A stretch of 11,724 bases of DNA from an uncultured Pedobacter sp. GTDB taxonomy: Bacteria; Bacteroidota; Bacteroidia; Sphingobacteriales; Sphingobacteriaceae. Position 1 is the stretch's first letter. Each line of letters opens with the position of its first letter. The notes beneath the pieces are model-generated. The model was given only the letters and a program-made list of their open reading frames with translations. It had not been told where the DNA came from and made no database searches. Where the stretch lies: the NCBI GenBank assembly GCA_946478755.1, contig CAMLDJ010000165.1, positions 1 to 11,724 of the forward strand, in the 5' to 3' direction. The position numbers and the translations under genes were made by a program. Below are positions 440 to 11,724 of this stretch, one piece after another.

Positions 440-1615
440 TTACTTAAACCTGTTGAACCTTGTTTGTATCCCGAACCGCAGGGTATTCCTAAGGGGATTA
501 TAACCCGATCCTACCAAATATGAAAAATCAAGGGAAAGGCTACTATAATGGACTCCAAGGCCAAGGGTAAGGTAAGAGGTATTGGCTTTTTCGGGGTGCT
601 GGTACAAGTAACCAGCCCTGAGGTACAGCGTCTCTTTGAAGCTCATTTCTGCGCCCGTTGATATGCCAACCTCTTTTAATTCTTCACGAAAGCCCCCTGG
701 AGCGTCACTGAAAGAGCCTAGAATCCCTGATGGCACCGAACGGTCAGGATCCCGGCCCTTTACTATATACCCATCGGGGCCGTAAATTGGCTGCGTTGGA
801 GCCATCAGTTTATTAAAATCAAGCAATAATGTAAGCTTGTTCTGGCCTTCGCCTATTTTAAGTGCAGATCCTATCTTCATATTTGCAGGAAGGAAGTAAG
901 ACTGGGCAGTATTGCGATAGCTCATTTTTGTGCCGATATTGGACAAGTTAAGGCCAAAGCTTAAAACCGCAGGAGTGCCTGCCAGCGTTATATCCGATTT
1001 CTGAAAAGCAGAAATATCTACAGCCAGGGCTTTTCCCGAGCCCCTGTTTCCATTAACTGTTCCTCCGCCAAAAAGGTTACTGCTGATATACCGTACATTT
1101 CCGCCAAGAGCGAAATCCGGACCAAGCCTGAGCGAATAGCCAAGATCGAATGCAGCTTCACTGGGGCTATAAACACCGAGATTCTGAAAATTTTCGTCGC
1201 TGAAATTAATATCCCCCATAGAAAAATACCTAATGGATGCAGATACTGTATTCCGCTGGTTCACCCTATAATACCCGCTAAGGTATGAAATACTCATATC
1301 AGGGGCCAGCTGCTTGAGCCAGGGGCTATAAGAGCAGGAAATACCGAAATCTCCCTCTGTGAGAAATGCAAGTGCAGATGTATTCATAACAGTAGAATTG
1401 GCATCAGGATCAAGGGCCACGCCAGCATTTCCCATTGCTCCTGATCTTGGCTGTGGCGTAATCAATAGGAATGGTACCGCAGTGTAAATATTGTTCCTGG
1501 CACTGGCATCTGTCTGGATACCGTTTATAGACTGAGCAGATACTGCTTGATGCAAAAGAATCAGAATTAATAAAGTCCACTTTTTAGTAGACACCTGGTT
1601 TGATCGTATTTTCAT
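440..1615 (-). CDS. porV: Type IX secretion system outer membrane protein PorV
   Basis: PorV (also called LptO) is an outer-membrane beta-barrel of the type IX secretion system. In the family it collects cargo carrying a C-terminal sorting domain from the translocon and passes it to the PorU sortase/attachment complex. The 391-residue product has a signal peptide (about residues 1-27, ending VSA before QS) and family-typical stretches: FLLI near the mature N-terminus followed by GAMGNAG, the YFSMGDINF strand, FLPAN(M)KIG, the DFNKLMAPT strand, SFSDAPGGFREELKE, and a C-terminal strand ending in TLRFGIQTRF. Length fits the family. I chose the ATG at 1613-1615; an in-frame GTG 11 codons upstream would put polar residues before the signal peptide. 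The gene lies downstream of a giant T9SS cargo gene with a terminator between them, and no porU is visible. Family assignment is firm; whether this is the main copy or a paralogue cannot be told here. Confidence 0.9.
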   Translation of the reverse strand: MKIRSNQVSTKKWTLLILILLHQAVSAQSINGIQTDASARNNIYTAVPFLLITPQPRSGAMGNAGVALDPDANSTVMNTSALAFLTEGDFGISCSYSPWLKQLAPDMSISYLSGYYRVNQRNTVSASIRYFSMGDINFSDENFQNLGVYSPSEAAFDLGYSLRLGPDFALGGNVRYISSNLFGGGTVNGNRGSGKALAVDISAFQKSDITLAGTPAVLSFGLNLSNIGTKMSYRNTAQSYFLPANMKIGSALKIGEGQNKLTLLLDFNKLMAPTQPIYGPDGYIVKGRDPDRSVPSGILGSFSDAPGGFREELKEVGISTGAEMSFKETLYLRAGYLYQHPEKANTSYLTLGLGVHYSSLSLDFSYLVGSGYNPLRNTLRFGIQTRFNRFK

Positions 1616-1650
1616 AGTGTTAGATATATAAATGTGGATCGATTGCACAT
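1612..1650 (-). other. Mini reading frame overlapping the porV start by ATGA
   Basis: A 12-codon frame (MCNRSTFIYLTL, then TGA) starts at the ATG at 1648-1650, and its stop codon shares the bases ATGA with the chosen porV start. Such overlaps can couple translation of a short leader to the downstream gene. This is a sequence observation only; an upstream ATG before any stop in this frame is expected by chance in roughly a quarter of starts beginning ATGA. Confidence 0.2.
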
Positions 1651-1813: not shown

Positions 1814-4800
1814 CTAATTGATAAGCACTTTGCCTGCATACTGGTTATTAAGTAGCAGAATATAAAGCCCAGCAGATATCTGCCGCTGTAACTGCACTTC
1901 TATATCGCCTGAATTGTTAACCGCAGATTTTGAATACACGGTGCGCCCGGTTAAATCTACTAACTTCACTTCTACTTCCTTCTTTAACAGGTTTGCAGTT
2001 GTGGTAATATTAAACCTGTTGTTTGTTACCGGGTTTGGATAAATTACGATACTGCTGGCTAAATTAATGTTGGATTCTTTCGGTGCTGTAATAGCCAACT
2101 GGTTATTTGTACCGGTAGGCACTGTGCCATAAATCAATTCTCCCTTGTAGTAAACACACACATGGTTATTTTCAGCAAAATTGCCCGTCTGGTAAGAATG
2201 ATCATTTAACTGGTTAAACGCTGACCAGTCTGACTTGGCAATCCGGTACTGGATGTTTCCTGTTTCACTTAAGGGATGCAGCTTACCGGCACTCGAATCT
2301 ACTTTCAGTTCCAGATATGCACCACCATTAGTGCCTATTGACGGACTTATAGCCACAAACTGCCCCTGAATTTTAGACACTCCCAAATTGGCATAGTCTA
2401 CCCAGAAGTTCAGGCCTGCTGCACTTTCAGGGGTAAAGAAATACCTGATGGAAATATCTTTGTAATCTACTGGAGTATTGCCTGTGTTCTCTAGCTTTAA
2501 ATAGGTGCTGATTGTGCTGCTTCCAGCACTTTTACCCTCTGTAAGTACTTTTACACTTTTGGTTTCGGTTATCAGCGCTGGCTCATTTCCCCAGATCAGG
2601 GTTCCGTTACGGTATAAGGTAATTTTGCTATTGTCAGCGTAGGTAGAACCTGTACGATAAGAAAAGTCGTTACTTTCGGTTAAGTTTGCCCAGTTTGAGT
2701 TGGCAAGGCCCGATTCGATAATGCCTGAACTGGCACCAGCGCTAAGTGTTCCTGCGGTAGCATCAAAACTGTATTCGATATAGCCATATGCATCGTTTCT
2801 TGGCTGAGGTAACGCAACATATTTGGTTTTAACCTTGCTGTTGCCCATCTGGGCATAATCTATCCAGGTATTAATGCCTGCAAAATTTTCTGCCGTAAGC
2901 CAGTAACGGACTGTAAGTATGTTATAACTGGTTGAAATGGTATCTCCGTTTACGATCTTTAGCTTTGGCCTGATTACATTGTTCGATTGCTGTCCGTTAT
3001 CACCATCAGCCGATAAAACCTTTAGATTTAAAGGCAGTATAGTCAGGTTTTGTGTAACACTGGCAGAATTGTATGTTTCATTTCCGGGCTGACTGGCTGT
3101 AAATACCGTAGTTCCGGCTTTTAAAATGCGTGCTACGCCATTTATAACTGTAGCGACACGCTCGTCCGAACTGCTAAAGCTTACAGGAATACCCGAAGAA
3201 GCAGCGGCCTCAAGGGCAAAATCAGCATCACCCAGAACTTTCGGGGCAATGGCAGCAAAGCTTATAGTTTGTACATTTTTAACTGTTAATGCCTGGCTTA
3301 TCGGCTGTGCTGCCGAATAATCTGTATTGCCAGCCTGTGATGCGGTAATGTTCGAAGTTCCGGCAGCTACAATATGTATTTTTCCATCCACAATGGTAGC
3401 CACCGATAAATCTGAACTTGTATAAGTTACCGGAAGACCCGATGTTGCAGTAGCAGCAGGATCAAAATCGGCATCTCCCTGTCCTTTTTCTGCCAGTACA
3501 TTAAATATAATATTCTGGCCCGCCTTCATATTTTGAGCAATCTCTGCAGCGGTTAAGGCCCTGCTGTAGATTTTAAATTCGTCAATCGAACCATTAAACA
3601 ACGGATCGTTAAACTGCGATTTACCCAGATAATTCAGCGTTGTGCTGCCAATAGCAGAAGGCTTTATTGTAAGACCCGTATTGGAAGCAACAGCAGTTCC
3701 GTTGACATACATTGTGCAAGTATTGCCAGATTGGGTAATGGCAAAGTGGGTCCAGGTATTGAGCGGTAAAGTATAATTATAACTTACAACCTGCTCCGCT
3801 CCTCCATTTTTAATGGCATAACGCATTACATTGGCACTTCCTGCCTGAATTGATAAAAACATATATTTAGTGGTTCCGGTACCAAAATCAAACACACGCA
3901 TCCAGTTTGTCTTGGCATCCATCTTTAACCATGTCGAAATGGTGAAATCATTTAAAGTGCTAACTATTCCTGTTGGAAGCGTGGCATAAGCGTTGGCTGT
4001 CCCATCCAGTTTAAGTGATGTTCCGTACTTTCCGGAGTTCCGGGTTGCTGTGGCTGCTAAGCTGCCATGAGTAGCTCCCCAGCTATCGATCCCCCGTACG
4101 CCGCTGGCTTCGTCAAATTTCAGGTAAGTTAACTGACCCACATTTGGTGTTGCCAGCACCTCTACGCTTGAAGGCATTTCTCCTACGCTGTCAACCGCTG
4201 CAACTACATAATAATAAGAAGTTCCATTGCTGATATTGGTGTCGATGAATTTTGTAGCGCCTACATTTGCTATGGTGGTATAAGGTCCGCCTGAAGTGGC
4301 CGAACGCTTAACATTATAACTAAAGTTTTGAATAGCATCCCATTCGATGATGTTCTTAGCATCGCCAGAGGCAACCAGAACGTCTTCTACTGTAGTATTC
4401 AGGATCCTTAATGAAAGGGTTGCAGTATCTGCTCCAGTCTCGTTTGAAACGGTTAATGTAACATTAAAAAGTCCGGCTTCGGTTGGAATTCCGGATATTA
4501 CACCCGTAGCAGCATTTACACTCAATCCGGCAGGAAGACCAGTGGCATTAAAGCTCGTCGGTGATTTAAGCGCGGTAATCGCATAAGAAAAATTCTTGCC
4601 TATGAGTGCAGTATCGGCCAATGCACTGATAATTGTTATGGGAATGGTTCTATCGTCAAGCAATTGTATATCATTACCCGATCCTCCTTTATAAGTAATA
4701 CGGAAATTATAGCTGCCTGCCGAAATAAGTGACATCTCAGGAAGATGCTTGAAAATACCGTTGATTTGATTAGCGCCCGTATTGTCTAAAATAGTAAAGT

Positions 4801-7800
4801 TTGTACCCGATGGCAATGAACCTGAAACAAGGTTATTTAATACCAATTTTGACTGGTTTAATGAAGCACCGCCTGCAATCACTTTGTCAGACGTAGCAGC
4901 TGGACCATTCACATCAACTTTATAGGTTGCATCCGTATTTAGGGTAATAAGTCCTGTTGTACTTAAAGTACCGATGGTTCCATCAGTGCCTGGCACTAAT
5001 GTAGCTCCAGTACCCGAACCGGTACCGATGGTTATCGTACTGGTATTTTTTCCACCTCCACCTAACGAGCCTTGTTTGGCAATAATAGGGCTATTATATG
5101 TACCTGCAGAACCGTTATTTAATAAAAATGTTCCGTTTAAAATAGTTGTTGTTCCTCCAAAAGTACTATTTCCTGAGAAAGTTAGGATTCCTGTTCCAAC
5201 TTTTTCTACTGAAAGTGTACCAGCCGCATTTGCCATTGTTCCACTAAAATTTGAATTGGTATTCAATGCTCCAATCCTGATAATAGGTGTTCCTGCAACA
5301 TTACTGCGGATACCGCCCCTTCCTGAAAGCGAACCGAATTCAAGGGCTCCGGTACCAAACATAATCCGATGGCAATCTGTACCCTGAGCATCCAATAACC
5401 AGTTAGCGTTCGCACTGCCCGATTGTGGCGCAGCAAAAGCCAAGCGGTGGCTTCCACTGCGCAGTTTGGTAATAAAAGTCCCGGTGAAGCCGCTATTATC
5501 GCCGTAGAGAGTAACAGTGGCATAGTTATCAGATCCATCATTATATAGTCCCCCACCTCCCGAAATTTTTCCATATAAATTTAAATGTCCCAGGCGCTCA
5601 TAAAGGAATCCGCTTTTACCTGCCGGAACTTCAATATCGTTATACAAAGTGGCCGTTTCGGTAGTTAATCCGGTATACAGCGCACCACCTTCCATGATGA
5701 TTTTTCCCGTTCCCAAAGGGCCACTGGTTGGAGCACTCGGTGCGCCTGTACCTATACCCATAACCTGGATACCATCAGTTGAACCCCAGGCATAACCTCT
5801 TGTTCCCTGGATAATTGTATTACCTGAATACGTATTTGCCCCAGACATTACAAGTGCCGAAGTTCCTGTTTTAAGTAAACTTCCTGTTCCGCTTACAATG
5901 CCATTTAGCTCAATGCTGTTTGTTTTTGCAGCCACATTTAATTGTCCGCCCAAAATGATAGGCATGGTTAATTTTTCGGGATTTGATGAGTTGTTAACCA
6001 GGTCGTTCTTTAACGTTAAAGCATTACCCGAAATAGTATAAGCATTTGCTTCGGTTTCAAATTGAATTCTCGATGCTATTATACCGTTTATATCGTTGGT
6101 CAGTAGTGAATCTGTAGTTGCATTGAATGTTAATATGGCAGGATTTACCGGAAGCGCATTTCCGATCCAGTTGCTGGCCAGATTTAACGAATCTGTAAGT
6201 GGTGTTGAGCTCCATACCGAAGAACTTGCGCCCGGAACGCCAAAGCTTTCGGGTGAATTGGCACTTTCCTTTGTGCTTCCTACAGAAGAAAGCACATAAT
6301 AATATGGGCTGCCACTGGTAACAGCTGTATCTTCGTAGGCGGAAGTGCTAACCGTTGCAATGGTGGTATAAGGGCCACCACTTACTGTACCACGTTTCAC
6401 CTTGTACGAAACAGCGCCTAAAACTGCATCCCATGTAAGGTTGATCCGGTCGCTTTGATTAACTACTGTAGGCCGGCTGGGAATTGCTGGAGGCACAGAT
6501 GCGAAAACTTCGCTGGAATTACCACTTTCCATATTGCCTGTAAATGCCGTAATAACATAATAATTATTTACTTCAGGTGCAGGAGCCGGATCTGTAAAAC
6601 TGGTGAGGGTAATAGCTGCCTGAATAGTGGTATATGGCCCTCCTGCTGTTAGCGAACGTTTTACCGAATAACTGGTAGCATTGGCTGAAGCTGGCCAGCT
6701 CAGTTTGATCTGTGTACCATTAACAACAGATACCGTAACCGGAGCGGGTGCTACAGGCGCCTGGTTATTGAGCACTTTCAGGATCAAAGTTGCAGTGCCG
6801 CTACCGCTGGTATTAGTGGCAGTTAGTGTTACTTCACTTTGTCCTAGCGCCGTAGGCGTACCCGATATTATACCGGTAGCTGCATCCAGGCTAAGCCCTG
6901 CAGGTAAACCGCTGGCACTATAAGCTGTAGGATTAGCACTGGCATTGATGTTGTAACTGAAGGGTAGGCCAATGGTAGTTGTGGCAGTGGTAGCACTGCT
7001 AATCTCCGGAGATCCCGCCGGTGCAGATTGGCTATAACCTACATTACTGAACGTGGCTGTATTATGTAACGATGTATTATTAGAGATGGTGTAAAAACCG
7101 AGGTACAGTTGTGCAGGGAAACCGGTTGCTGAATACCAGCAACTAAGATTCGTCCAGTTAACGCCATCCTGTGAGTGGTATGCAAATATGCGTGTGTTTA
7201 CACGTTCAATTTTTAACCACCAGGGGGCTTTGGGCTGTCCATGCCTTCCGATACCGCCATTTGCCCCAAGAAAAAGATCCCAAAAAGGGGAACCAGGCGC
7301 TAATGATTCGCGTATCATAACACCGCAGCCTCCGGTAGTAAGCGACATATTATCAACCTTTACAACCAGACCTGCATCGCCGCTCATTTTTTTAAAGCTA
7401 AAACTGAAGGCATTACTGGTGGAATTTCCGGCACCTTTTATTGTCCAGATCCCGTTATTGAAGGATGCGCTGCCTGCCAGTCCGGGGTTACCAATATCAA
7501 TATTGGTTAGGTTATTTACTGGCTGCACGTGCTCTGAAGGATAAAACACTGGCGGCAAAATAACCGCAGTAGAAGTATCGGATGATTTCAGATACAAGAA
7601 ATCTCCTCCTGCTCCACCTAAAGCAGCCCGCATCCTATCGGTATGAGGGGTAGGTATTCCCTTACGCCTGTTATATGCATTATGAATGATATTGGTCATG
7701 TCGCCACGCCTTTCTCCCGGCATAATTCCCCAGTTGGTCCAATAACTGGCATAACCGCCAAAGGGGATATAGGTCATGCTAGCCCCATCAAAAGCATATT

Positions 7801-8680
7801 GATGATACAGCTCACCAATAGCCAATACCCTGTTATCAAGTTCGGCAAACATATCTACCTTCTGCTTGTAGGCTACTTCTGCGCCCCATGCCAGGGCAGC
7901 TGCCTGTATACGCCAGTGGTCATCGCGGCCTGTATCTCCTACTTCGCCATTGGGCAGCGAGTTGCGCATACCTCCACCGGCATCCATCCTGTATACTTCT
8001 ATCGACTGGTTAAACCGGGTAATATCATTACAAAAAACCGATGCTGCGAGGGCAATTTTTAATTGGATAGCTCCCTTGTTTTGATCGCGCAACGGAAATG
8101 GAACAAATGAGGTTGGAAATAAAACTTCAGAAAAATATTTTTCTACATGCTGTGTATTAGCTGCAGTCCAGCCAGGAAAAGTATAGCGCAGAATTTCTGC
8201 TCCTACCCCCCAATACTGGGCATAATCGCCAATATCCAGCATAGATTCAATGCCTCCCCAGGTGGTATTGGTAACTGCCCAGGCATCCAGCATATTGGTT
8301 GCTTTTCGGGCATAGGCACTATCTGCGGTAAAAACGTACATAAAGGCCAGGTTACGGATAGCAACCATATCGTTTATCCATGCATTGTTATTTAGGTGCG
8401 GAGCACGGCTTACCGTAGCGTATGGCCCTGCCATCACATAGCTTAGCTTAGACTTGCCGTCATTTTTAAATGCGTTGTAAGCCGACAACCAAGGTTCCTG
8501 GGTAATGTTGGCTTTCAACTGATTCAGGTCAGCCTGGTTTAGCGCAATACCCGGATGAACAAAGGTTTGTATCTGCGCTCTTGATTTCTGAGCGCCCATA
8601 AAAGTCAGAAAAGCAAAAAAGAAAATAATCAGGTTCTTTTTTGCCATCAGTTTTAGCTGGTAAAGTAAAAGTTTTCTCAT
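1814..8680 (-). CDS. Giant T9SS-secreted alginate-lyase-like protein with PATR, LamG and CBM3 modules
   Basis: A 2288-residue secreted multidomain protein, probably a polysaccharide lyase attacking uronate-rich glycans at the cell surface. Rough domain order: signal peptide (1-35, SRA before QIQ); alginate-lyase family domain of the PF05426 type (about 40-365), with NDMVAIRNLAF, DAWA, and NGEVGDTGRDDHW at 244-256; DUF1349-like ConA sandwich (395-548, GVMIRESL); putative Ig (555-634); two FN3 (640-727, 731-816); autotransporter-type beta-helix with PATR repeats (817-1345); second putative Ig (1347-1430); third FN3 (1433-1515); LamG/ConA (1516-1720); two Ig-like repeats (1722-1885); two CBM3 (1886-2035, 2037-2190); T9SS type A sorting domain (about 2198-2288, IYPNPV). 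Start: ATG at 8678-8680; ATG at 8645-8647 (Met12) also gives a good signal peptide. The usual His after the candidate catalytic Asn201 is Lys. Exact substrate is unknown; CBM3 suggests cellulose-containing walls. Neighbour porV fits its export route. Confidence 0.85.
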   Translation of the reverse strand: MRKLLLYQLKLMAKKNLIIFFFAFLTFMGAQKSRAQIQTFVHPGIALNQADLNQLKANITQEPWLSAYNAFKNDGKSKLSYVMAGPYATVSRAPHLNNNAWINDMVAIRNLAFMYVFTADSAYARKATNMLDAWAVTNTTWGGIESMLDIGDYAQYWGVGAEILRYTFPGWTAANTQHVEKYFSEVLFPTSFVPFPLRDQNKGAIQLKIALAASVFCNDITRFNQSIEVYRMDAGGGMRNSLPNGEVGDTGRDDHWRIQAAALAWGAEVAYKQKVDMFAELDNRVLAIGELYHQYAFDGASMTYIPFGGYASYWTNWGIMPGERRGDMTNIIHNAYNRRKGIPTPHTDRMRAALGGAGGDFLYLKSSDTSTAVILPPVFYPSEHVQPVNNLTNIDIGNPGLAGSASFNNGIWTIKGAGNSTSNAFSFSFKKMSGDAGLVVKVDNMSLTTGGCGVMIRESLAPGSPFWDLFLGANGGIGRHGQPKAPWWLKIERVNTRIFAYHSQDGVNWTNLSCWYSATGFPAQLYLGFYTISNNTSLHNTATFSNVGYSQSAPAGSPEISSATTATTTIGLPFSYNINASANPTAYSASGLPAGLSLDAATGIISGTPTALGQSEVTLTATNTSGSGTATLILKVLNNQAPVAPAPVTVSVVNGTQIKLSWPASANATSYSVKRSLTAGGPYTTIQAAITLTSFTDPAPAPEVNNYYVITAFTGNMESGNSSEVFASVPPAIPSRPTVVNQSDRINLTWDAVLGAVSYKVKRGTVSGGPYTTIATVSTSAYEDTAVTSGSPYYYVLSSVGSTKESANSPESFGVPGASSSVWSSTPLTDSLNLASNWIGNALPVNPAILTFNATTDSLLTNDINGIIASRIQFETEANAYTISGNALTLKNDLVNNSSNPEKLTMPIILGGQLNVAAKTNSIELNGIVSGTGSLLKTGTSALVMSGANTYSGNTIIQGTRGYAWGSTDGIQVMGIGTGAPSAPTSGPLGTGKIIMEGGALYTGLTTETATLYNDIEVPAGKSGFLYERLGHLNLYGKISGGGGLYNDGSDNYATVTLYGDNSGFTGTFITKLRSGSHRLAFAAPQSGSANANWLLDAQGTDCHRIMFGTGALEFGSLSGRGGIRSNVAGTPIIRIGALNTNSNFSGTMANAAGTLSVEKVGTGILTFSGNSTFGGTTTILNGTFLLNNGSAGTYNSPIIAKQGSLGGGGKNTSTITIGTGSGTGATLVPGTDGTIGTLSTTGLITLNTDATYKVDVNGPAATSDKVIAGGASLNQSKLVLNNLVSGSLPSGTNFTILDNTGANQINGIFKHLPEMSLISAGSYNFRITYKGGSGNDIQLLDDRTIPITIISALADTALIGKNFSYAITALKSPTSFNATGLPAGLSVNAATGVISGIPTEAGLFNVTLTVSNETGADTATLSLRILNTTVEDVLVASGDAKNIIEWDAIQNFSYNVKRSATSGGPYTTIANVGATKFIDTNISNGTSYYYVVAAVDSVGEMPSSVEVLATPNVGQLTYLKFDEASGVRGIDSWGATHGSLAATATRNSGKYGTSLKLDGTANAYATLPTGIVSTLNDFTISTWLKMDAKTNWMRVFDFGTGTTKYMFLSIQAGSANVMRYAIKNGGAEQVVSYNYTLPLNTWTHFAITQSGNTCTMYVNGTAVASNTGLTIKPSAIGSTTLNYLGKSQFNDPLFNGSIDEFKIYSRALTAAEIAQNMKAGQNIIFNVLAEKGQGDADFDPAATATSGLPVTYTSSDLSVATIVDGKIHIVAAGTSNITASQAGNTDYSAAQPISQALTVKNVQTISFAAIAPKVLGDADFALEAAASSGIPVSFSSSDERVATVINGVARILKAGTTVFTASQPGNETYNSASVTQNLTILPLNLKVLSADGDNGQQSNNVIRPKLKIVNGDTISTSYNILTVRYWLTAENFAGINTWIDYAQMGNSKVKTKYVALPQPRNDAYGYIEYSFDATAGTLSAGASSGIIESGLANSNWANLTESNDFSYRTGSTYADNSKITLYRNGTLIWGNEPALITETKSVKVLTEGKSAGSSTISTYLKLENTGNTPVDYKDISIRYFFTPESAAGLNFWVDYANLGVSKIQGQFVAISPSIGTNGGAYLELKVDSSAGKLHPLSETGNIQYRIAKSDWSAFNQLNDHSYQTGNFAENNHVCVYYKGELIYGTVPTGTNNQLAITAPKESNINLASSIVIYPNPVTNNRFNITTTANLLKKEVEVKLVDLTGRTVYSKSAVNNSGDIEVQLQRQISAGLYILLLNNQYAGKVLIN
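2110..3031 (-). repeat. Tandem CBM3 modules inside the giant protein
   Basis: Two adjacent family 3 carbohydrate-binding modules (about residues 1886-2035 and 2037-2190). Each has the CBM3 order: an RYWLT or RYFFT strand, a W(I/V)DYA segment followed by a glycine two residues on, an aromatic AY(G/L) strand, a SxW segment, a (F/Y)-containing SYRTG or SYQTG turn, and an LIWG or LIYG end. The first closes with the canonical WGNEP; the second has YGTVP. They share the pattern but differ at most positions, so this is an old duplication. The family binds crystalline cellulose or chitin; actual ligand is inferred. Confidence 0.8.
3035..3517 (-). repeat. Tandem bacterial Ig-like (MBG/BIG type) repeats inside the giant protein
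   Basis: Two 82-residue units (1722-1803 and 1804-1885) align end to end: Q-x-I-x-F, then GDADF, then SG(L/I)PV with SSD and VAT, then G(T)S or GT before TASQ(A/P)GN, and a closing LT(V/I). They probably act as stiff spacers between LamG and the CBM3 pair. The period of 82 residues was counted from the DNA. Confidence 0.8.
4663..6230 (-). repeat. Autotransporter-associated beta-helix region (PATR repeats) within the giant protein
   Basis: Residues about 817-1345 are rich in Gly, Ser, Thr and Asn and carry at least two autotransporter-associated beta-strand repeats: G(S)LLKTGTSALVMSGANTYSG (near residue 944) and a later copy with VEKVGTGILTFSGNSTFGGTT (near 1160). The region closes with the TILDNTG, FRITYKGGSGNDIQL pattern usual at the end of such passengers. 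No autotransporter barrel follows; the protein ends in a T9SS domain instead. Confidence 0.75.
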
Positions 8681-8883: not shown

Positions 8884-8920
8884 AAAAAAGGGATGCAGTG
8901 TCATAAACTACATCCCTTTT
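8884..8920 (-). terminator. Rho-independent terminator of the thioredoxin operon
   Basis: Bases 8886-8899 pair with 8907-8920 around a 7-nt loop. In the minus-strand RNA all 14 positions pair, one of them as G-U (8896/8910); in the plus-strand RNA that position is a C-A mismatch, so the structure favours the minus strand. The stem is followed on the minus strand by six U (complement of 8884-8889). It begins 17 bases past the stop codon of the thioredoxin-fold gene. Confidence 0.9.
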
Positions 8921-8936: not shown

Positions 8937-10154
8937 TTATTCGCCTTTTTTCATTTTCTCCAGGGTAACCTGGTATTTCGCTTTATTTTCGGCTGCAACC
9001 AGGTCCACCGCTTTCTGCTGCATGGCAATCGCCTGGTCCTTTTTGCCCAGCTTATACAGCAGATTGGCATAGGTGTCCAGGTAGGCAGGCTCCTTAGTTT
9101 GGGTCTCATCCACGCTGCGTTTACTCCAGCTCAGCGCCTCAGTAATACAGTTTGTATCTTTACAGTTTTCAAAAACCGCCCATGCAAAGAAATTCAACAT
9201 ATCAGCGGTCACTTCGGCACCATATTTTTTCATATAGCTTAGTAATGCCGGCTGAAATTTATCCCATTTTTTTTCGGCATGGAAAACCTGAATCTTTATC
9301 AGTTCGGTGGCTTTGCTGATGTCTACAGTTGGATATTTCACTTGTGCGGCAGCAACCAGTGAATCTATATTAGCATTGGATTTTCGAAGTCCGGGATAAA
9401 TATTTTCCTCCAGAATAACGGAACCCAGGATTTCATTTGATTTTCCTTTTCCCAGAACGGCATCTACTTTTTCAGGATCTTTTAACATCAGCTCAAATCC
9501 CTTGCTTTGGCTGCTTTTGGTGTATTTGCTCACAAACTCCAGGTTTTCTTTGCTATACAGGTCTTTTTGTGTAGCCATGTAAGCGCTGGCAAACTTTTCG
9601 GAGTTTTCCTCATCATAGGCGGCCTCGGCACTAGTTGCCAACTGTTTCAGGGTCTCAGGAGTAGCATTTCCCGACTCGCTTTTTTTCAGTAGCGTGTAAT
9701 ATTGGGTTTCTGGGTTTAGCGCCATCTTCGCTTTGGCGATAAATTCATCCGCCTCACCGCCGCCTACAATACGGTGTACAAGCTTGCCCTGTGGAGAAAA
9801 GATCAGGAAGGTAGGATAGGCATTTATCTTGAACTCTTTGCTCATCGATTTGGCATCCGCATACCAGCTTTTAACTTCTTCGCTGTCATTTTTGGTCTGA
9901 TCGAACTGTACCTTAACATTTACAAAGTTTTTGTTGAAGAATTCACCGACCTTTTCCTGCGGAAAAATGGTACTGGCCATGTATTTGCAGGGGCCGCACC
10001 AGGTTGTAAAGCAGTCTACCAAAAGGTATTTGTTCTCTTTTTTAGCTTTATCTTTTGCCTGCTGCCAGGAAAGTCCATGCTCAAAATGTGTGCCTTTAAC
10101 TTGGGCCGTACCAATAAAAGGCAGCAGCAGGAATATTAAAAATAATTTTTTCAT
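8937..10154 (-). CDS. Exported thioredoxin-fold protein with C-terminal helical repeats
   Basis: A 405-residue periplasmic protein with a thioredoxin fold at its N-terminus. The signal peptide covers about residues 1-18 (MKKLFLIFLLLPFIGTAQ). The thioredoxin domain spans about 25-145, with the redox motif TWCGPC (Cys53, Cys56) and the cis-Pro after Tyr113 (AYPTF, Pro114). The rest, about 150-405, is mostly alpha-helical and charged; residues 350-395 read like a TPR hairpin (AYLDTYANLLYKLG then AIAMQQKAV). Two further Cys occur in ENCKDTNC. It probably reduces or isomerises disulfides of exported proteins, but the partner is unknown. The ATG at 10152-10154 gives the signal peptide directly. It lies 39 bases after the TlpA gene and before a strong terminator, so it is the last gene of that operon. 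Confidence 0.88.
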   Translation of the reverse strand: MKKLFLIFLLLPFIGTAQVKGTHFEHGLSWQQAKDKAKKENKYLLVDCFTTWCGPCKYMASTIFPQEKVGEFFNKNFVNVKVQFDQTKNDSEEVKSWYADAKSMSKEFKINAYPTFLIFSPQGKLVHRIVGGGEADEFIAKAKMALNPETQYYTLLKKSESGNATPETLKQLATSAEAAYDEENSEKFASAYMATQKDLYSKENLEFVSKYTKSSQSKGFELMLKDPEKVDAVLGKGKSNEILGSVILEENIYPGLRKSNANIDSLVAAAQVKYPTVDISKATELIKIQVFHAEKKWDKFQPALLSYMKKYGAEVTADMLNFFAWAVFENCKDTNCITEALSWSKRSVDETQTKEPAYLDTYANLLYKLGKKDQAIAMQQKAVDLVAAENKAKYQVTLEKMKKGE

Positions 10155-10193
10155 ACAGTTTGTTTTCTATGAGTTTCTTTGGGTGATTAAATT

Positions 10194-11369
10194 TTAACGG
10201 GACATCTCTATCATGGCTGAAAGTTGCCTGACAGCAACCTCATTTGGCCAAAGTAATCCCAGCTCTTTGAAACGTATTTTACCGTTGCCATCAATAATAA
10301 ACTTCGCGGGGATTCCTGAGACGCCAAATGACGATACTGCAGGATTCTTTTTTGTAACGGGATCTTTAGTATCCATATACAAAGGCAAATCCAGGTTATG
10401 GGTTAACAAGTAATTTACAGCATCAGGTTTTGGGTTTGGAACCGTTTCCCAGGTGTGTATAAACAGAAACTTTACCGTCGGGTCGTTTTTATATTTATTA
10501 ACCATCATTTGCATCGCTGGAAGCGACTTTTTACAGGGCCCACACCAGGTTGCCCAAAAGTCGAGAACAATGGTCTTTCCTTTAAAGTCTGACAAGGATA
10601 CTTCTTTACCATTTATGTCTTTAACTTTAAATTCAGGTGCCTGCTCCGTTATCATTTTGGCTGCTATTTCTGCTTTATATTTGTCGTCAAACTGCTTGGT
10701 TAAAGTAGCCAGGTAAGCATTTGAATCTTTTCCCGGATGCACATTTATATAGGCCTTTTTCAGTTCATTCTTAAAATCATCATCGGCCAAGCCTAACAAA
10801 ACTGCTTTTTCCAGCTCTGGAAGCGCTTCCTGGTACCTGCCTGTTTTGCTCATCAAATAATAATATTGCGCGGTTAATCCTGCACTTTTTCTGGCGGCCT
10901 GCTCATAGCACTCCTTAATGGCGGCAAAAGCTTTGTTATGGTCGCCCATTTTATCTGCCACCTGACTATATAGTTGTAACAAAAATAACCGCTCTTCTTT
11001 CGCATTTTTTGGGTTATTCAATTCTTGTCCAACTAATGTTTCAGCAGCTTTCAAATCGTAGGTCATAATGCCTGTCGCAACTGTTTCAACATACATGATC
11101 CTTGCGGTCTGTTCAATCTGGTTGAAGTAGTGTAAAGCCTTGGCTGAGTTTTTTGCAATCACAAAGTTTTCGGCCAATTTAGCTCTGTATTGGTCAAAAT
11201 TGTCGTTCGGATGGGCTTTGACCAAACGGTTAAGAATGGCTTCTTTTTCTGAGAGATCAATAAAGATCTTCAGAGAATCTAAACTTGCCTTATATGCCGG
11301 CTGTGCCTGCTGAGTAAATGCAGACTTTCCGATAGTCAGGATTGCAATGAGCAGGACTATTTTTTTCAT
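10194..11369 (-). CDS. TlpA-family disulfide reductase (thioredoxin-like, periplasmic)
   Basis: A 391-residue exported protein whose C-terminal half is a TlpA/ResA-like thioredoxin domain. Residues 1-20 form a signal peptide (MKKIVLLIAILTIGKSAFTQ). Residues about 25-235 are helical with TPR-like character (YYLMSKTGRYQEALPELEKAV). The redox domain starts with APEF (244-247) and KGK before FWATWCGPCKKS (Cys276, Cys279); cis-Pro354 lies in SGIPAKFIID. TlpA-type proteins keep periplasmic thiols reduced, for example on cytochrome or SusC-type partners; here the substrate is unknown. I chose the ATG at 11367-11369: an in-frame TTG 11 codons earlier would spoil the signal peptide. The gene lies 41 bases after the stop of the upstream partial gene, suggesting cotranscription. 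It mirrors its neighbour: there the thioredoxin domain comes first, here last. Confidence 0.92.
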   Translation of the reverse strand: MKKIVLLIAILTIGKSAFTQQAQPAYKASLDSLKIFIDLSEKEAILNRLVKAHPNDNFDQYRAKLAENFVIAKNSAKALHYFNQIEQTARIMYVETVATGIMTYDLKAAETLVGQELNNPKNAKEERLFLLQLYSQVADKMGDHNKAFAAIKECYEQAARKSAGLTAQYYYLMSKTGRYQEALPELEKAVLLGLADDDFKNELKKAYINVHPGKDSNAYLATLTKQFDDKYKAEIAAKMITEQAPEFKVKDINGKEVSLSDFKGKTIVLDFWATWCGPCKKSLPAMQMMVNKYKNDPTVKFLFIHTWETVPNPKPDAVNYLLTHNLDLPLYMDTKDPVTKKNPAVSSFGVSGIPAKFIIDGNGKIRFKELGLLWPNEVAVRQLSAMIEMSR

Positions 11370-11410
11370 TATCGTATTTGTTAAATAATTAATATAATTC
11401 AATTGGGTGT

Positions 11411-11708
11411 TTACAGGTTATCTCTGGCAGGGGCAATTTGTATAATTTCACCAAAGCCGGTAAATTTCTTGGCATAAGTACCATTACTAAATTCCCCCTG
11501 ACCATTGATGCTGAAATAATAAACTTCACCCGTTGCACCATTATTAACACCGATTACCAATTGTTTACTGGTGCTACGCAACATTTCAATGTCTTTAATT
11601 ACGTATCCTGATGGGAACGTGTAAATCAGACGTGCGGCGTTTGCAAGCATATCGTACAAATAAACCTTGTTGCCAACAGTGTAATAAAGTTGTTTTAAAA
11701 TTGATGAG
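11411..11708 (-). CDS. 3' end of a gene, possibly PKD-like family lipoprotein (partial)
   Basis: An open frame enters from the contig end and stops at 11411-11413, leaving about 99 codons of genuine sequence. The visible part is beta-rich: YYTVGNKVYLYD, then ARLIYTFPSGYVIKDIEML, GATGEVYYFSINGQG, and TKKFTGFGE-like KKFTGFGEII near the end. This resembles from memory the C-terminus of the PKD-like lipoproteins found in Bacteroidota SusC/SusD loci beside DUF4843 proteins and TlpA, which would fit the next two genes. A TTG at 11657-11659 is an internal codon, not a start, because the frame stays open to the edge. The first codons from 11709 on derive from adapter sequence and should be ignored. 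Family name is a guess; being a real partial gene is well supported. Confidence 0.6.
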
Positions 11709-11724
11709 AGATCGGAAGAGCACA
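11709..11724. other. Illumina TruSeq adapter remnant at the contig end
   Basis: The final 16 bases read AGATCGGAAGAGCACA, identical to the first 16 bases of the TruSeq Read 1 adapter; the last three bases ACA separate it from the Read 2 adapter. It should be trimmed as contamination and not read as genome. Confidence 0.95.

Follow-up and report, generated by a model that had tools for sequence, protein, structure and literature searches.

A giant T9SS cargo of Pedobacter with a putative cellulose-tethered uronate lyase domain and an adjoining PorV paralogue

The 11,724-nucleotide stretch of uncultured Pedobacter sp. DNA analysed here (the window; contig CAMLDJ010000165.1 of assembly GCA_946478755.1) carries a giant gene at 1814..8680 that reads as a single open frame from ATG to stop in the open reading frame listing, encodes 2288 residues and has homologues that reach 90% identity, in P0001 of Pedobacter ginsenosidimutans. 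A preliminary description of this DNA had recognised the uninterrupted frame and named no strand; the gene, like every other feature located below, lies on the minus strand. The module order, the fold, the conserved residues, the gene neighbours and a statistical association between extra PorV genes and type-A cargo genes of the type IX secretion system (T9SS) were computed directly, and from them we infer an activity, a substrate, cellulose binding and a satellite PorV that serves the giant. With somewhat better than even confidence, we favour a joint reading in which the product is a uronate lyase exported by Sec and the T9SS, placed on the surface or secreted, tethered to cellulose and provided with a PorV kept for this cargo. 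Its most probable function is to act on plant-wall material as a uronate lyase, tethered to cellulose and with no family assigned.

In the mechanism that we propose, the giant would be exported via Sec and then the T9SS, where, past the translocon, its type-A sorting domain would be collected by the next-door PorV reserved for it, and the protein would end at the cell surface or be secreted. The N-terminal domain would then open an acidic (uronate) polysaccharide through beta-elimination, with Asn201 and Arg252 neutralising the carboxylate and His255 handling the proton. The twin CBM3 modules would hold the giant on plant-wall cellulose, the LamG, Ig and FN3 modules and a stiff beta-helix would serve as spacer and further glycan contacts, and the fragments would be imported by SusC/SusD systems, which adjoin many relatives of the giant gene.

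Lyase-fold domain and presumed active site

The lyase-fold domain (residues 38-370; 7571..8569) matches the Alginate_lyase profile PF05426 at residues 97-231, scoring 21.9 bits in the whole protein and 26.3 bits as an isolated domain against a cut-off of 22.2, and the same match is present in 12 of 12 members of set A1. Its fold is the helical toroid of lyases of polysaccharide lyase (PL) families PL5, PL17 and PL38, and its best structural matches are alginate lyases, which supports the lyase-like N-terminal domain of the preliminary description. No significant sequence similarity over the full length was found to any characterised lyase of these three families, the best match of a profile against PDB sequences (1.5e-4) spanning 39 positions only.

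Conservation was read from an alignment of 240 domains, comprising the query and 239 of 249 retrieved proteins, ten having been left out with too little of the domain aligned. Arg252 and His255 are invariant (240/240 each), position 201 is Asn in 234 domains and Ser in 6, and position 202, a His in PL38, holds Lys in 208 domains and Gln in the other 32. The family profile matches single-domain relatives of the ESGRDQ type at 100% probability over 327 columns; these relatives match the PL38 profile at 75-79%, and a merged profile does so at 62%. Through the intermediate family or the merged profile, N201-K202 falls opposite the Asn-His pair of PL38, which makes Asn201 (8078..8080) the conserved Asn of the presumed active site, and hhalign places Arg252 to His255 (7916..7927) in the segment that holds the PL38 catalytic Tyr, with the invariant His255 opposite or beside that Tyr in a register that differs by one or two residues from one comparison to another. 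Mapped through the merged profile at 62%, a His beside the neutralising Asn occurs in 0 of the 240 domains.

In the available part of the PL35 paper (PMC12088678), this Asn-adjoining His is conserved in alginate lyases of PL5, PL15, PL17, PL38 and PL39 and is key to the alginate activity of GAGase III. Its absence from the giant-lyase family therefore disfavours alginate as the substrate, whereas the conservation of the Asn, Arg and His disfavours a dead enzyme. That the domain is an alginate lyase proper, cutting bacterial or brown-algal alginate as its Pfam name implies, is accordingly a reading we consider unlikely. It has in its favour the PF05426 match throughout set A1, the alginate lyases among the structural matches and the bacterial alginate that soil bacteria encounter, and it has to contend with the Lys or Gln in place of the usual His in all 240 domains, with the plant-wall type glycosidases among the scanned neighbours of relatives and with a separate PL38-type gene bearing that His in two of the three Pedobacter genomes searched. 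Each of those two genomes holds two PF05426 genes with the usual Asn-His (L076, L077, L079 and L080; loci, genomes and proteins are labelled L, G and P), of which L076 is PL38-like by PDB match and the others by look.

The loss of the usual His, and possibly of the usual Tyr, would also suit a non-catalytic adhesin in which the lyase fold has become glycan-binding and the whole protein acts as surface glue for cellulose-containing particles. Binding and spacer modules make up most of the giant, and two relatives carry a type-B tail, which serves adhesins in F. johnsoniae according to the accessible part of PMC12618676. Against such an adhesin, few positions of the domain are as conserved as the presumed active-site residues, and the lyase module is present in 120/120 listed homologues, the set covered by segment comparisons out of 500 proteins that a whole-length search, with 7994 candidates scored, found at E up to 1e-5. 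Moreover, in the distant loci L040-L073, most of which lack the other modules, the lyase (38-44%) is better conserved than the beta-sandwich that follows it (24-35%). We would give the adhesin, like the alginate lyase, a small share of the probability, and we retain a catalytic uronate lyase as the preferred reading of the domain.

Probable cellulose binding and export signals

Cellulose tethering would be provided by two CBM3 modules near the C-terminus, the first at residues 1885-2036 (2573..3028; PDB 2l8a_A, 9.1e-28) and the second at residues 2037-2192 (2105..2572; 6d5b_A, 5.9e-25). Pfam assigns CBM_3 to two stretches with 119.2 bits, and both modules are similar to solved cellulose binders. 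In the PDB alignments both keep a Trp (W1997, W2152), the second also keeps an Arg (R2146), and a His gives way to Tyr in each of them, a replacement shared with 2l8a, a Bacillus-type endoglucanase module; we take these Trp, Arg and His positions to be those of the CBM3 cellulose-binding strip. Judged from these sequence features, cellulose binding by the twin modules is likely.

Export is suggested by the two ends of the protein. Residues 1-37 (8570..8680) form an N-terminal export signal region, a hydrophobic stretch read from the sequence, and residues 2213-2280 (1841..2044) form a type-A T9SS sorting domain that exceeds the cut-offs of both TIGR04183 (30.6 bits; cut-off 23) and PF18962 Por_Secre_tail (38.6 bits; cut-off 27), which makes the giant a type-A T9SS cargo.

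Extra PorV copies beside type-A cargo genes

Directly downstream of the giant, after a gap of 165 bp, lies a PorV paralogue (440..1648) that was absent from the preliminary account and that scores 389.3 bits against the NF033710 equivalog cut-off of 250. PorV is the next gene past the giant in 5/5 close Pedobacter relatives, with a gap of 155-167 bp in four and of 1017 bp in L116. These five giant-bearing genomes (G001, G002, G003, G042 and G059) each hold one PorV past the giant (389.0-399.9 bits) and a higher-scoring one elsewhere (482.7-484.3 bits), so the adjoining copy was rejected as a single housekeeping PorV in each of them.

The repeated pairing of extra PorV copies with type-A cargo is the less expected result of this work. 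Type-A cargo genes are scarce (2-11 per genome), yet 12 of 17 extra PorVs in ten genomes lie within 10 kb of one, against 0.40 expected; without the three giant pairs, the same genomes give 9 of 14 against 0.33. Fourteen other genomes give 11 of 17, six of them within 200 bp, against 0.45 expected. The best-scoring PorV of each genome, which is what canonical means in these counts, was within 10 kb of type-A cargo in 0/10 and 0/14 genomes of the two sets; its context was inspected for 20 loci, not for the fourteen-genome set, and in 20/20 it lies between GldJ and IspF. TIGR04183 was found in the C-termini of 7/40 neighbours of extra PorVs in the first 20 loci and of 6/38 in the second 19, against 0/40 neighbours of canonical copies. 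The statistics assume random placement and independent genomes, and since the genomes are related the P values are too small. In G190 and G158 of the fourteen-genome set the two PorV copies score alike, and the best-scoring copy of G190 is 12 kb from a cargo gene. L171 was dropped from the extra loci for its canonical context by eye, and a partial G005 match (23 bits) and one further low-scoring copy each in G012 and G053 are uncounted in the ten-genome set.

Among relatives of the giant, sorting tail and shuttle gene appear to change together. Tails were scanned in ten relatives. For the genes downstream, the longest frame of a locus was treated as the giant; in L022, L025, L033, L036 and L039 this frame is a different gene or a fragment, and the downstream genes of these loci were disregarded. 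A type-B CHU_C tail is present in two of the ten, L010 and L021, both Mucilaginibacter, and these two alone have a PorP/SprF gene downstream, at 17 bp and 10 bp respectively, identified by scanning in L021 and by cluster membership with that gene in L010. In the remaining eight the tail is of type A, and the giant adjoins neither SprF nor PorV. As described in the available portions of PMC12618676 and PMC10202324, type-A tails are collected by PorV and PorP/SprF are the cognate shuttles for type-B cargo.

We therefore consider, with a confidence just short of even, that a type-A T9SS cargo can own a dedicated PorV, that extra PorVs travel with single type-A genes as cognate shuttles in Pedobacter and relatives, and that the giant-lyase family swaps tail and shuttle together, pairing type-A with PorV in Pedobacter and type-B with PorP/SprF in Mucilaginibacter. 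A serious competitor, which we rate as possible and somewhat doubtful, is that the adjoining PorV is a chance neighbour or spare copy and that, as with other type-A cargo, export of the giant goes through the canonical PorV. In the accessible text of PMC12618676, PorV recognises all type-A tails, and the eight type-A giants checked in other genera have no adjoining PorV. A chance or spare copy sits poorly, however, with a pairing far above chance in two non-overlapping genome sets and with the distribution of TIGR04183 tails beside extra and canonical copies. In titles and abstract openings of the open-access PubMed Central articles that literature searches listed, neither PorV copies paired with type-A cargo nor the giant-lyase protein family is described, and the available part of the Cytophaga hutchinsonii PorV paper (PMC8564354) mentions no further PorV copy.

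Several other arrangements were seen around PorV genes. One recurring cassette (L133, L135, L147, L150, L184, L186, L187 and L188) consists of a protein of ~163-193 aa with a type-A-like tail, an extra PorV and a protein of ~1000-1580 aa with a conserved C-terminus. At L131, L137, L175, L178, L180 and L181 an extra PorV is followed by proteins of ~168-178 and 282-284 aa and then by a long repetitive frame of >2100 aa that runs off the stretch and, in L131, comes after a 460-aa frame. At L139-L144 and L185 an extra PorV is near very large frames, from 877 aa (cut off) to 2241 aa, in which no T9SS tail is visible by eye. Sister giants with lyase domains 38-42% identical lie 34-44 kb from a PorV copy (G094:C2, G052:C25 and G004:C16); single-domain lyase relatives are present in these regions as well.

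Gene neighbourhood and substrate

Neighbours were surveyed at the first 39 of 75 loci, all from Bacteroidota, within flanks of at most 10 kb to either side of the lyase match, which reach only about 3 kb past most giants; each cluster was named from one or two scanned members. SusC and SusD clusters occur at 19 loci each, GH28-like and hybrid two-component system (HTCS) genes at 9 each, GH97 at 7 and LacI at 4; an additional gene of the lyase similarity cluster is present at 11, and GH43, GH88, GH42 and arabinofuranosidase genes at single loci. From 120 GH28 matches in about 115 Mb of 16 genomes, ~0.35 of 16 stretches would be expected to hold one, and 7 do (counted by contig position, with L011 left out). 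These neighbours point to an acidic polysaccharide of the plant wall, pectin-type or other, although sugar genes tend to cluster in any case. The genera that host the fetched relatives are mainly soil and plant dwellers. The preliminary suggestion of a lyase anchored to a cellulose-containing wall holds as a best guess, but its stress on alginate or brown algae is not supported, given the Lys or Gln at position 202, the host genera and the GH28, GH43, GH97, GH88, GH42 and arabinofuranosidase neighbours.

Several observations weigh against the joint reading. Identity of the domain to solved lyases is 8-15%, an attempt to align the family profile directly with PL38 failed (5% probability, 24 columns aligned), and the active-site mapping depends on the intermediate family or the merged profile. 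The second PorV copy is established for the five relatives, not for the window's own genome; PorV follows the giant only in Pedobacter (3/39 loci plus L116 and L118), and 11 of 34 extra PorVs have no detected type-A cargo gene within 10 kb. Of the five close relatives, G042 (L116/L117) is the only one with a sugar cluster beside the giant; upstream of the giant, G002, G003 and G059 have SusC, SusD, DUF4843, PKD_2, redoxin and thioredoxin genes that point to no sugar (scanned in L118), and G001 has SusD and a 504-aa frame of no assigned identity. Related sugar clusters are present elsewhere in G059 and G003 (L119, L120).

The window itself shares this upstream block, found in L002, L004 and L118, over 8937-11722, as far as it extends. 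Upstream of the giant lie first a thioredoxin-like gene (8937..10154; Pfam, with the same neighbour in L002, L004 and L118), next a redoxin (AhpC/TSA) gene (10194..11402; Pfam) and then a frame at 11411..11722 that gives no match in a Pfam scan and is probably the C-terminal part of a PKD_2 family protein, being 98% identical to part of a longer L002 frame whose cluster mate in L118 is PKD_2. A terminator-like hairpin of 14 pairs (8886..8920), detected by a consensus scan only, parts the thioredoxin gene from the giant, and the giant and PorV may therefore form their own transcription unit.

Module layout and distribution

Between the lyase and the CBM3 modules, the giant is a long series of putative binding and spacer domains. 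A DUF1349-like beta-sandwich (residues 385-548; 7037..7528) is present in all 120 homologues; DUF1349 is assigned at its position in 2/12 members of set A1 and in many lyase relatives. The ConA sandwich proposed earlier for this position is a weaker point of the preliminary description, a Pfam scan of the giant itself giving no match there. It is followed by a He_PIG Ig-like domain (residues 560-636; 6773..7003; Pfam) and two FN3 domains (residues 640-815; 6236..6763), the first assigned by homologue similarity only and the second (residues 731-812) by PDB similarity to 3mpc_A (4.6e-16) and 5g56_A (1.8e-15). Past the beta-helix come a second He_PIG by Pfam and a third FN3 from segment similarity (residues 1358-1515; 4136..4609), a LamG domain (Laminin_G_3, 112.7 bits by Pfam; residues 1561-1715; 3536..4000) and two Ig-like repeats (residues 1723-1884; 3029..3514). 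The Ig/FN3, LamG, twin CBM3 and sorting modules of the preliminary description are all borne out, and its two Ig repeats are supported by segment similarity to homologues, with a Pfam match that is only weak.

The beta-helix (residues 816-1356; 4613..6235), described earlier as 500 residues long, is predicted to be a 541-residue all-beta solenoid (predicted local distance difference test, pLDDT, 90.7). NCBIfam assigns TIGR02601 to two stretches of the giant in addition to TIGR04183, and PATR scores slightly below its Pfam cut-off. Foldseek places the model nearest to the beta-helix domain 7jvi (1.9e-6) and then to the autotransporter passengers Ag43 (7.1e-4), Ssp and pertactin. Among 46 Foldseek matches at E up to 10 none is a polysaccharide lyase by title, which offers nothing for a second catalytic domain, and glycosidase-type beta-helices (GH110, phage tailspikes) appear at E above 1 only. 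Most simply, the model would be a passenger-like solenoid with a spacer role. The autotransporter module named in the preliminary description thus stands as a passenger-like beta-helix, but an autotransporter (type V) identity was rejected: the C-terminus consists of CBM3 and the T9SS tail, and Pfam and NCBIfam scans found no autotransporter translocator or barrel family.

The layout, thought unusual in the preliminary description, is common in Bacteroidota. The lyase, sandwich and beta-helix are each present in 120/120 listed homologues, LamG in 119 and two or more CBM3 in 58; 57 combine lyase, sandwich, beta-helix, LamG and at least two CBM3, a count that set no sorting-tail requirement. The searches made here brought up no known activity for any of the many homologues, and a read error joining two genes, a concern raised earlier, is very unlikely with the core in a single chain in all 120. 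The sorting tail was found in 40/120 by likeness to that of the giant, other tails being too different, and the rear part is variable, with extra LamG, Ig or sandwich copies or without CBM3. The closest homologue, the 2370-aa P0001 protein, is 90% identical over 82%. Within Pedobacter the occurrence is patchy: 17/119 genomes matched at 1e-10, 4 of them closely (87-98%). Outside Bacteroidota (Massilia, Duganella, Verrucomicrobia and others) the lyase and sandwich are kept, often with F5/8C or RICIN domains instead. A second DUF1349-like sandwich occurs later in the chain at L018, L023, L027, L028, L033 and L034 and in P0047, P0056, P0059 and P0098, and paralogues in tandem were also seen, of the giant in Flavobacterium and of a sister giant in Pedobacter (L003, L007, L074).

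Comparison with known systems

Within the alginate-lyase fold, a large branch that has no family assignment, differs in its conserved active-site residues and is often linked to plant-wall genes may represent a new polysaccharide lyase family. Should PorV copies each serve a single cargo, it would be the choice of shuttle, rather than one general PorV, that sorts type-A T9SS export, and predictions of cargo destination would have to change accordingly.

Among characterised lyases, PL17 (Alg17c, 4nei), PL5 (A1-III) and PL38 (BoPL38, BACOVA_01668) are the nearest counterparts, at only 8-15% identity to the giant's lyase. The giant family differs from them in the Lys or Gln that replaces the Asn-adjoining His and in the His within the catalytic-Tyr segment, and its lyase is followed by a DUF1349-like sandwich. 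Proteins of Massilia, Duganella and Verrucomicrobia (many of P0141-P0249, mostly 800-960 aa) share the lyase domain at about 35-46% identity and usually the same DUF1349 sandwich, accompanied by F5/8C or RICIN, and mostly lack the beta-helix, LamG, CBM3 and T9SS tail. CelAly and related marine modular enzymes (GH5 with PL31), as presented in the available part of PMC13235733, are likewise multimodular Bacteroidota proteins that join an alginate-lyase-type domain to cellulose targeting in one chain. CelAly, however, combines a cellulase with a PL31 lyase in a marine setting, whereas the giant has an unassigned lyase and no glycosidase domain in Pfam and NCBIfam scans. The adjoining gene resembles known PorV and PorP/SprF shuttles in that it encodes an outer-membrane barrel and lies downstream of a gene for T9SS cargo, with NF033710 above its cut-off; the pairing presented in the accessible parts of PMC12618676 and PMC10202324 is that of PorP/SprF with type-B tails, whereas here it is PorV that accompanies type-A tails.
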